A stretch of 64,000 nucleotides of DNA from Collinsella sp. An307 (lineage in GTDB: Bacteria > Actinomycetota > Coriobacteriia > Coriobacteriales > Coriobacteriaceae), in NCBI RefSeq assembly GCF_002161805.1, contig NZ_NFIP01000004.1, positions 1-64,000 of the forward strand, read 5' to 3'. Shown one piece after another: positions 60,349 to 63,420 of the stretch (the stretch's first letter is position 1; every line of letters begins with the position of its first letter). Both the position numbers and the translations under genes were made by a program. The notes under the pieces were generated by a model. The model made no database searches, was not told the origin of the DNA, and worked only from the letters and a program-made list of their open reading frames with translations.

Positions 60349-60387
60349 GCCGCGCACCTCCCCGCACCCATCGCAACGAACGAAAAC

Positions 60388-60421
60388 GCCCGGGCCGACG
60401 GAGGGTACCGTCGGCCCGGGC
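60388..60421 (-). terminator. terminator after the sensor kinase operon
   Basis: A 14-bp perfect stem (60388-60401 with 60408-60421) is followed on the minus strand by GTTTTCG. It lies between the GHKL kinase stop and recQ. Confidence 0.8.
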
Positions 60422-60510
60422 AGACTAGTTCCGTAGCGAGGATTATACGCTAGCGCGTGCGGCGGCGCAGCGCGGCTGCTGCACCAATGACGCCCGCACT
60501 GACAGGGCCA

Positions 60511-61575
60511 CTAATCCAACTTGAGGATCACATCGACACGAAGCATACCGTCCCGCTGTTTGAGCGTGAGGGTGCCCTCACGGCGCTCGGCAAGGTCGCG
60601 CACGATGGTGAGACCCCAGCCGTGTTCAGGGAGCAGCGAGGCTTCCCCGATGTCCATCCCGTCACGGTACGCGTGTCGCAGGCGAGGTGGCATGCGACGC
60701 GGCTTCAGTCGGTCGATGGCAGCCGCCTGCTCCGGGGTGCAAGGGTTTTCCACCGCAAGGGCGAGGTAGCCCTGAGCCGTGCGCATGCGCACCGTAACCG
60801 TAGGCACCGTGCGCGCGGGCGCATCTGCCTCATGTCGCGCCCCACCTTGCGATGCCGTTTGCTCGCGGCCAGCCACCTCTTCCGCACCTGCCTGAACCGC
60901 CGCGGTGAGAGCGTTATCCACCAGGTTAGAGATGACCGCACAGAGCTCGGCATCGGTGATACCAATATTCGCCGGAACCTCGGCATGCACGACGAGCTGC
61001 GCACCCCGCTCCTTTGCCTGCGCCATCTTGGCCTTGAGGAGGGCATCGACAACGGGGTGCGCGCAGAGGCGGCCGCCAAAACGCGGAAGCGCCTCCTCGG
61101 TGCGCGCCAACCCCTCCCGTGCTGCCGCCGCGTCGCCTGACGCCAACGCATCGGCGATACGGGTGAATTCCGCTGCATAACGTTCACGATCTTGCCGGGC
61201 CACCGCAAGCGCCTGCTCCGTTTGCGTGAGATGCACCTGTTGTACCGCAACCTGTTCCTCCAGCGCCCGCGCGCGAGCGCGGCTCACCTCGAGCTCGCTT
61301 GCCTCGGCGATACCGGCAAGGAGCCACGCATTAGACACAGCGCAGCCCGCACCTGCAACTACCGCCGCGAACTCGAGAAGCACCACGCTGGCTGACGCGT
61401 CCGCAGGCACCACGAAAACAATAATCATCAACGTCGCCATCTGCCACGCAGCGATGAGCGCCGTGAGCACGCGGCTGCCGATGGGTAGCGCGCGATATCG
61501 GCGCACGACCGACACGAAAGACAAGCCGACAACAAGAGTCGCCGCGCATACCAGCGCAAGAGCGAGCTCCCTCAT
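60511..61575 (-). CDS. GHKL ATPase subunit of a sensor kinase, lacking the phospho-acceptor His
   Basis: 354 residues. About three membrane helices (1 to ~95) are followed by a coiled coil (~95-135) and a DHp-like helical pair (RQDRERYAAEF...ADALASGDAAAAREGL). A GHKL ATP-binding domain follows with N box NLVDNALTAA and G box HGWGLTIV. The RHDxxNH H-box expected in this kinase family is missing; the aligned stretch has no His. The gene overlaps the upstream partner by 4 nt (ATGA). That partner has an intact H-box but no ATPase. Together they look like one kinase split in two. Confidence 0.82.
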   Translation of the reverse strand: MRELALALVCAATLVVGLSFVSVVRRYRALPIGSRVLTALIAAWQMATLMIIVFVVPADASASVVLLEFAAVVAGAGCAVSNAWLLAGIAEASELEVSRARARALEEQVAVQQVHLTQTEQALAVARQDRERYAAEFTRIADALASGDAAAAREGLARTEEALPRFGGRLCAHPVVDALLKAKMAQAKERGAQLVVHAEVPANIGITDAELCAVISNLVDNALTAAVQAGAEEVAGREQTASQGGARHEADAPARTVPTVTVRMRTAQGYLALAVENPCTPEQAAAIDRLKPRRMPPRLRHAYRDGMDIGEASLLPEHGWGLTIVRDLAERREGTLTLKQRDGMLRVDVILKLD

Positions 61576-62459
61576 GAGGACTCACCGTCCTCGTGGGCGA
61601 GTAGATCGGCCATCTCGCGTGCATAAGCTGCCGCCCGCTCGAAATCGCCCTCCGCCATGAGCGCATCGATCGCTTGCAGGTGATTGCGTGCGTCGTGACG
61701 AAGTTGCGCGGTGCGCACCGTGGCGCGCATGACGTGGTCGTACTCCGCAAGACAGGCATCGAGCTGCTCTTGCGCCACGTCCGCCTGCGCGCGGGCGATC
61801 GCGGTACGGCGCGCCCGCTCCACCTGCGCCAACAGAACCACCAAAATCAACGGTAATGCGATCATGCACGTCACACCCGCGCGCGCAAGAGGATAGGTGG
61901 ATGAGATGCCCTCTGCCACGAACAGGGAATACATGATGCTCGCGAGCACCGCGCAGCAAAGGGCGGTCGCCGCAAAACGAGGCAAGACAACGTTTATGCG
62001 CGCGCCGTGCGTCCAACGCGCCATGAACGCGCACACGACGCGCCCGCAGGCGACAAGAACAGCAAACGCGAGCAGGCGGAGTGCGAGGAACAGCACCGGG
62101 TCCTCAGCCATCACTGCCGCAGCATCGATGGGCTTTCCTGCAAGTACAAGAAACAAAAAGCCCGTAACCTCGCCTGCAATCGCCACCCCGATGCAGAGCG
62201 CCGTGGCTACGAGACGGCGCGCCACGGGGCCGCGCATCAAAAACGGCGGCAGGATGAACATGCAGAGCAGGAAGTGTATGCGCGTGACTGCGGGATATAC
62301 CTCACCCGTAACGATATCGAACGCCATGGCCGCGCCGCTCGCAACAAGATAGGCTGTACGGCCGCGCATAGGTAGCGCCATAGCCATATTCCAGCACATG
62401 ACGAACGTGTTGACGCCGCCGGCAAGCGTGATAAGCACCTGAAGCGCACCCTCGCCCAT
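61572..62459 (-). CDS. membrane sensor subunit with H-box but no ATPase domain
   Basis: 295 residues. Six or seven membrane helices fill residues 1 to ~215, as in AgrC/ComD-type sensors. A coiled coil and a DHp segment with QLRHDARNHLQAIDALMAEGDFERAAAY follow (RHDxxNHL H-box). The protein then stops about 20 residues later, so no catalytic domain is encoded. The stop overlaps the start of the GHKL ATPase subunit by 4 nt. The start at 62459 lies 7 bp after the response regulator stop, with AGGTGG upstream. Confidence 0.82.
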   Translation of the reverse strand: MGEGALQVLITLAGGVNTFVMCWNMAMALPMRGRTAYLVASGAAMAFDIVTGEVYPAVTRIHFLLCMFILPPFLMRGPVARRLVATALCIGVAIAGEVTGFLFLVLAGKPIDAAAVMAEDPVLFLALRLLAFAVLVACGRVVCAFMARWTHGARINVVLPRFAATALCCAVLASIMYSLFVAEGISSTYPLARAGVTCMIALPLILVVLLAQVERARRTAIARAQADVAQEQLDACLAEYDHVMRATVRTAQLRHDARNHLQAIDALMAEGDFERAAAYAREMADLLAHEDGESS

Positions 62460-62466
62460 CGTCCAC

Positions 62467-63231
62467 CTACAGTGTCCGGCGGACGAAGGCCATAAGGTGC
62501 TCGGCAAACGCTTTGCGGCAGCGCTGACTTACTGGAAGATGCGCGCCATCCGCAAGAACGAGCTCGCGACCGGTAAACTCCGCCACATACGCCAAGTTGA
62601 CGAGAAAACTCTTATGGCAGCGCACAAACTGGTCGGGCAGCTGCGCCTCGAGTTCTGATATGCGCGCATAGGCCTCCACCGTGCGCGTGCGCTCGTGGAT
62701 GCGCACCTTGCGGCGGTCGCTCTCGATATAGCGCACCTCGCGCGGTGCGATGCGAATGAGCGAGATACCCTGGTGGACCAGCAAGGGCTCCGCCCGCTCC
62801 GCGTCCAGCGCTTCGACGGCGCGGGCGAGCGCCGCGTTGAGCTCGTCTTGCACCACAGGCTTGGAGAGAAACCACGTATGGCGCGTGTGATATGCAGCAG
62901 GTGCGTACTCAAGATAGGCGGAGACGTAGATGACCTGCACGGATGCGGTGGACGGAATGAGCCGGTGGACGAGGTCGATGCCGTTGAGGCCATCTGCCAG
63001 CCGTACATCGACAAAGAGGATGTCGGGCAGCGCCGCTGCCGAGAGTACGCGATGGGAGTCGGTATCCAAGGGGCGCGGAGAAGCATTATCCGAAGGCGTC
63101 CGCTGGATGTTGTCGACCGCCCGCCACGCTGCCGCGAGCTCAAGACGCTCCGTCGCGGGCGAGGCCGCAATCATGCGAGCGAGCTCGGCGGCGTGCGCCG
63201 CATCGTCCTCCACTATGGCCACCGTATACAT
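62467..63231 (-). CDS. LytTR-family response regulator
   Basis: 254 residues. The receiver domain (1 to ~140; VAIVEDDAAHAAELARMI) has its phospho-Asp in LFVDVRLADGLNGIDL and the switch Lys in FLSKPV. The LytTR DNA-binding domain (~150-250) has RIAPREVRYIESDRRKVRIH and FVRCHKSFLVNLAYV. A ~25-residue insert sits in the receiver. It is the first gene of the regulator plus split-kinase operon. Its Shine-Dalgarno site lies within a run of ten G residues (10 C on the plus strand, 63238-63247), 6 nt before the ATG, so slippage could change translation. Confidence 0.92.
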   Translation of the reverse strand: MYTVAIVEDDAAHAAELARMIAASPATERLELAAAWRAVDNIQRTPSDNASPRPLDTDSHRVLSAAALPDILFVDVRLADGLNGIDLVHRLIPSTASVQVIYVSAYLEYAPAAYHTRHTWFLSKPVVQDELNAALARAVEALDAERAEPLLVHQGISLIRIAPREVRYIESDRRKVRIHERTRTVEAYARISELEAQLPDQFVRCHKSFLVNLAYVAEFTGRELVLADGAHLPVSQRCRKAFAEHLMAFVRRTL

Positions 63232-63420
63232 AGAGCACCCCCCCCCCGTGATCTGCTACTGTCCAATGCGGGGAATAGGGCTCCATACTACCATCGGGAA
63301 GCTGCGGAAAGGCGCTATCGCGGCGGGCGATGTCACAACCGCGCGGTTATCCGTCACGAGCGATGCGATGGGCCGCACCCATCCCCTGTACGCAGCAAAG
63401 CGCCCGGCGTTGGGGGGTTG

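Follow-up and report, generated by a model that had tools for sequence, protein, structure and literature searches.

On the minus strand of the window (the whole 64,000-nucleotide stretch of Collinsella sp. An307 DNA that was analysed), the open frames and their translations define a three-gene operon in which a LytTR response regulator is followed by two membrane proteins, designated subunits A and B (Table 1). The first-pass annotation had described two overlapping genes behind a LytTR regulator, and both frames are present where it had placed them. The stop codon of the regulator is separated from the start of A by 7 bases, and a purine-rich stretch lies upstream of the A start. The ATGA overlap at the A/B junction is likely to provide translational coupling of the two subunits, as judged from its sequence. 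A run of ten G residues (window 63238-63247, minus strand) ends 7 bases before the ATG of the regulator, at the Shine-Dalgarno position, and the corresponding site has nine G residues in the orthologous loci L021 and L022. The run could render translation of the regulator, the first gene of the operon, phase-variable.

A further split-kinase operon, paralogous to the first and equipped with a LytTR regulator of its own, is present in the source genome (L020, G000:C16, about 109307-111173). A secreted protein is encoded downstream of B in both orthologous operons (L021:4344-5795 and L022:2225-3643), and the L021 copy, which was the one scanned, gave a weak LPXTG-anchor match below the cut-off. 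This protein is absent after B at the window locus (60358-60510), and the sole match to it elsewhere in the source genome corresponds to the last 70 residues of the query. Several paralogous operons are also followed by secreted proteins.

Table 1. Features of the split-kinase operon in the window.
Feature	Position	Strand	Evidence and remarks
LytTR response regulator with receiver domain	62467..63231	-	Presumably targeted by the split kinase; Pfam LytTR E 2.1e-22, Response_reg E 6.6e-08
Subunit A: polytopic membrane sensor and DHp hairpin, box RHDARNHL (H255), without ATPase	61572..62459	-	ATG at 62459, stop at 61572; translation, family alignment, structure model
Subunit B: ~3 membrane helices, His-less DHp hairpin, GHKL ATPase (N-box NLVDNA, G-box HGWGL)	60511..61575	-	Open frame from 61575 to 60511; translation, Pfam, hhalign, AgrC as best PDB match
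ATGA overlap, stop of A and start of B	61572..61575	-	4 bp, read from the sequence

Domain content of the two subunits

Subunit A has about six membrane helices, a long helix carrying the RHDARNHL box, and a short second helix, after which the chain stops; it thus ends with a full DHp hairpin. In the predicted model, the membrane helices are accompanied by helices at residues 190-269 and 273-293, and the C-terminus lies ~40 residues past the His. The only Pfam match of A is a weak one to the Spo0B/DHp helix family PF14689 (E 0.0011, below the cut-off). No ATPase domain was found in A by Pfam, and comparison of the model with PDB folds gave no meaningful match. Pfam, the translation, and the family alignment agree with the initial description of A as a sensor that has an intact His box and lacks an ATPase.

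Subunit B matches the GHKL family HATPase_c_5 above the Pfam cut-off (24.8 versus 22 bits). The best PDB match of its ATPase region is AgrC (entries 6e52 and 4bxi), both by sequence (E 0.00033) and by the fold of the model (E 1.2e-8). B has the same kind of long helix and hairpin, with ARQDRERY in the region of A's His box. An hhalign comparison of 12 B proteins with 14 A proteins spans 128 columns (E 1.6e-9), covers the last membrane region, the coiled coil, and the DHp, and places R254-H255-D256 of A opposite R130-E131-R132 of B. By this alignment, A and B are homologous. The earlier assignment of membrane helices, a His-less DHp, and a GHKL ATPase to B is likewise borne out by Pfam and hhalign.

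The features of the AgrC/HPK10 type, namely a multi-TM sensor, an RHDxxNH-type box, HATPase_c_5, and a LytTR regulator, are all present when A, B, and the regulator are taken together. However, the His and the ATPase, which AgrC/HPK10 kinases carry in a single protein, are divided here, with the His box only in A and the ATPase only in B. Neither A nor B has a Pfam match to CheA-type Hpt/P1 acceptor or CheW-like P5 domains.

Conservation of the division among relatives

For the survey, 72 regions were fetched (12 places in the genus and 60 from family and class searches), together with a Flavonifractor locus. The 60 places were mainly B matches with E < about 1e-27 that extended into the membrane segment, whereas weaker hits and a number of partial ones were passed over. 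The class search covered 396 genomes drawn evenly from the larger group, and the B profile gave matches at E 1e-15 in 141 of them, ordinary kinases included. In a phylum draw of 396 genomes, ten had matches at E 1e-25 or better, all within the same order. The opened regions contain 71 B loci in 58 genomes, of which 57 belong to the same order (12, 14, and 31 genomes in three family labels) and the remaining one is Flavonifractor. Clustering at 90% identity reduces the 72 B rows to 61 groups. Named B relatives belong to Collinsella, Candidatus Coprousia, Slackia, an uncultured Coriobacteriaceae bacterium, and an Eggerthellaceae MAG, with a more distant one in Flavonifractor; three additional weak hits are full-length kinases or unchecked. 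A LytTR regulator is present at 61 of the 71 B loci.

Profile scores, and not motifs, decided whether a row was assigned to A or to B. Two of the 87 A rows stop short of the His site, and the 85 readable rows all have the Arg and the His of the box, followed by Asp in 84 and Glu in one. The N-box pattern occurs in none of the 87 A rows. The B rows were aligned with eight full-length kinases, and the part of the DHp helix that surrounds the His is free of gaps. In B, the His is missing in 69 of 72 rows, while the preceding Arg is kept in 55, the N-box in 71, and the G-box in 69 (both boxes by pattern). The position of the His is occupied by Glu (17 rows), Ala (15), Arg (13), Asp (6), Thr (5), Gln (3), Met (3), Leu (2), Gly (2), Ser (2), Val (1), or His (3). 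The three rows with His are those of L023, L024, and L144. Because the rest of the box is absent in all three and their close relatives have Leu or Arg at this site, the His looks incidental. A B protein with a complete H-box of its own, which the first-pass annotation had regarded as an argument against the division, is not found among these rows.

The B protein of L152 has neither the N-box nor the G-box pattern, and two further B proteins lack the G-box pattern. At L152 (G232:C13:34200-43000), the adjacent A has RHELSN, and this pair seems, from its sequences, to be decaying or diverging. The B profile also retrieved 20 full-length relatives, all of which have the HD box in the same chain as the ATPase; in 19 of them the N-box lies 87-88 residues downstream. 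For the 20th (L072), the automatic distance measurement hit an earlier chance match; its box is RHDMRHFL at position 352 of a 529-aa frame.

The overlap of the two frames, and nothing else, would favour a sequencing error or the decay of a single AgrC-type kinase gene, and a base error or frameshift near 61572-61575 had been named at the outset as a possible cause of the division. In the orthologous operons of two other genomes of the genus (L021 and L022), the B proteins are 88% and 84% identical and the A proteins 93% and 90% identical to those of the window, and the 4-bp A/B junction is the same. The dN/dS values among the window and the two orthologues are 0.21-0.33 for A and 0.31-0.50 for B, indicating purifying selection on both. 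The conserved junction, the purifying selection, and the same division in dozens of loci rule out a base error. A single gene split by a frameshift is also rejected, because B, with a membrane segment and a DHp of its own, is more than the missing rest of A. Against the same architecture in 58 genomes, an origin by error or decay has a negligible probability, and the A/B division is not a sequencing artefact.

Gene order, fusions, and multiple A subunits

The proposed search of relatives for the same gene pair was productive, as A adjoins B or is fused to it in 68 of the 71 B loci. Two of the three loci without A (L142 and L143) are cut by contig ends, whereas L100 stands, for now, as a genuine exception: the search of its genome (G009) gave no A, and its B (G009:C7) lies ~1 kb from a contig end with no regulator beside it. 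The 71 B loci include the orders RR-A-B (31 loci, where RR is the regulator), RR-B-A (8), fused (6), and A-B-RR (3). Orders with at least two A genes are RR-A-A-B, A-RR-A-B, RR-A-B-A, A-A-B-RR, A-A-A-B, A-A-B, B-A-A-RR, and RR-B-A-A-A-B-A. Among 67 A/B junctions, 38 have an overlap of 1-20 bp and 22 have an overlap of exactly 4 bp; in 23, a long apparent overlap results from taking the start of the longest frame, and the true start is uncertain there.

A fused version, which had also been suggested as an object of search, exists in the form of six natural A-B fusions (L115, L135, L137, L145, L146, and L159). In the fused chain, a linker joins the sensor and the His box of A to another membrane segment, which is followed by the His-less DHp and the ATPase. 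The called frame of the L115 fusion lacks the first membrane helices of A and contains only the last part of the sensor. In the B tree, L146 stands apart from the group of L135, L137, L145, and L159, and the position of L115 is not settled; fusion may have happened more than once, or the tree may reflect a single change between these groups. Apparent fusions in L040/L057 and L061 (613-aa and 505-aa frames) were open-frame artefacts, in which A lies in another overlapping frame.

The existence of true fusions elsewhere implies that a joined chain would be tolerated, and programmed frameshifting at the ATGA overlap could in principle yield one A-B fusion chain, so that the protein would not be truly split. 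However, the junctions vary among loci: some genes overlap by 1, 4, 8, 10, 13, or 19 bp, others are separated by 0, 2, 6, or 9 bp, and in some loci B precedes A, which means that no fixed frame relation is kept. In addition, no slippery heptamer was recognized by eye at the window junction. We consider frameshifting of this kind very unlikely.

The A paralogues encoded at the same locus have unlike sensors (20-45% identity) and more similar coiled coil and DHp regions (37-94%). The A pairs were compared using 82 of the 87 A rows, as five were too short or lacked the site. In all 21 same-locus pairs, the cytoplasmic identity falls in the upper half relative to different-locus A pairs of similar sensor identity; the fraction of different-locus pairs with an identity as high is 0.11 on average and 0.42 at most, although the pairs are not independent. 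This pattern fits the idea that several sensors stay matched to a single B and a single regulator. B and the regulator are equally compatible as the cause of the shared cytoplasmic part, and recent duplication or gene conversion could contribute. At L136 (G231:C16:12000-26000), four A genes and two B genes lie behind one regulator.

Because A-A-B, A-B-A, A-RR-A-B, and A-A-A-B operons combine unlike sensors with a more similar coiled coil and DHp, these loci fit an order-wide modular receptor system, in which one shared B would serve a single A subunit, or two, three, or more A subunits that differ from one another, encoded beside it. We regard the chances for and against this possibility as about evenly balanced. 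If it is true, several signals would compete for, or add up on, one ATPase and one LytTR regulator, and the arrangement would resemble some eukaryotic receptors with a common signalling subunit.

Proposed mechanism, origin, and known systems

Trans phosphorylation within an A/B heteromer is our best inference from these sequences. We consider it highly probable that A and B form an obligate heteromer of the AgrC/LytTR kind, which arose by duplication and complementary loss and in which the ATPase of B phosphorylates the His of A in trans, with subsequent transfer of the phosphate to the regulator. By analogy with streptococcal FasC, signal sensing probably sits in A, which is variable and polytopic. 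A would thus sense the signal at the membrane and bear the His to be phosphorylated, whereas B, having lost its own His, would supply the only ATPase. Pairing of the two subunits would involve their coiled coils and DHp hairpins, which are homologous, and the interface is likely to be a four-helix bundle of mixed composition, since both hairpins are predicted as intact helices. Because B has no recognizable acceptor and A has no ATPase, autophosphorylation, if any, should run from B to H255 of A, and it would be in trans by definition, as A and B are different chains. The phosphate would then pass from A to the Asp of the LytTR regulator.

A physical A/B complex, whatever its stoichiometry, is supported by the six natural fusions and by the operons with several A per B. 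The divergence of A correlates with that of B (r = 0.89 for all 53 pairs, and 0.72 for those below 60% identity), a correlation that shared descent also gives. In the tree, the 72 B rows lie on one side and the eight full-length kinases on the other with a support of 88/82; as long branches meet there, B is only tentatively treated as one group apart from the full-length kinases. Together with the A-B homology, this tree points to a single duplication of an AgrC-type kinase, with complementary losses thereafter. A and B look like complementary remnants of such a duplicated kinase; A would have lost the ATPase, and B the His box and the front membrane helices. The Flavonifractor B (L048, 446 aa) has a longer membrane domain, lacks the His, and is followed by an A with RHDINNQL. 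It may represent an intermediate form or a horizontal transfer.

AgrC of Staphylococcus aureus carries the His and the ATPase in one chain, and its solved module has both the DHp and the ATPase. It shares the multi-TM sensor and the LytTR regulator with A/B but differs in being a single chain. In Mycobacterium tuberculosis, the Rv0600c/Rv0601c kinase is divided between a protein with the ATPase and one with the His, beside one regulator, TcrA; this is, as far as is known, a single case outside the AgrC/LytTR family. CheA3 and CheA4 of Rhodobacter sphaeroides do not autophosphorylate alone but do so when mixed, and, as in A/B, the acceptor His and the ATPase are on separate chains (PMC3591291). 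They differ in having a P1 acceptor and P5 domains, in belonging to a cytoplasmic chemotaxis cluster, and in their regulator, CheY6 (PMC3591291), whereas A and B are both AgrC-type membrane proteins that come with a LytTR regulator. In Synechocystis, Hik36/Hik43 is also a kinase over two genes, but it is of the CheA/PilL type and serves a pilus system (PMC7656254).

The closest experimental precedent appears to be FasB/FasC/FasA of group A Streptococcus, in which two membrane kinase-like proteins heterodimerize and act with a ComE-like regulator (PMC12675982). Two-hybrid analysis there gave FasB/FasC heterodimers and no homodimers. The TM-DHp part of FasC, including H246, is sufficient; H246 is needed and the FasC ATPase domain is dispensable, and the authors proposed FasC to be a pseudokinase. 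FasB suffices as DHp-HATPase only, and its DHp still has His residues, H241, which is not needed, and H284 (PMC12675982). Like A and B, FasB and FasC are two AgrC-like kinases encoded in one operon with a LytTR-type regulator, a likeness drawn from the published description at the level of the general family. In contrast to A and B, both Fas proteins keep six predicted TM helices, a DHp, and a HATPase, so that the parts dispensable in Fas are physically gone in A/B, as seen in A without its HATPase. The A/B family also has natural fusions and loci where more than one A accompanies B, features of which we found no mention for Fas in the sections consulted (PMC12675982). By analogy, FasBC supports the heteromer reading.

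A could instead be a Spo0B-like phosphotransfer protein or phosphate sink that is phosphorylated by another kinase or by the regulator, with B as an independent modulator, e.g., a regulator phosphatase or an allosteric partner. The sole Pfam match of A, to a Spo0B-type helix family below the cut-off, and the presence of B in G009, where no A was found, are in line with this idea. However, the adjacency or fusion of A and B in nearly all loci, the fusions themselves, and the reciprocal distribution of the His and the ATP motifs point to a partnership, and FasC offers a worked example of the kinase reading. We regard the Spo0B-like role as improbable and retain the trans-phosphorylating A/B heteromer as the preferred interpretation.

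The principle of a split kinase is already known. Our literature search, which covered few subscription journals, found no description of the A/B pair, and an order-wide, fully divided membrane kinase with fusions and several sensors per ATPase appears to be the new part. Either A or B alone is easily mistaken for a truncated or degenerate kinase. Sensor kinases have long been studied with respect to cis versus trans phosphorylation, the need for both sites of a dimer, and the route by which a signal crosses the dimer to the ATPase, and such work has usually required engineered heterodimers. The A/B pair would be a heterodimer made by nature, with the acceptor and the ATPase on separate chains, the fusions as controls, and, in some operons, several acceptors per ATPase. 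It represents a widespread signalling layout in gut Coriobacteriia that is undescribed in the literature searched.
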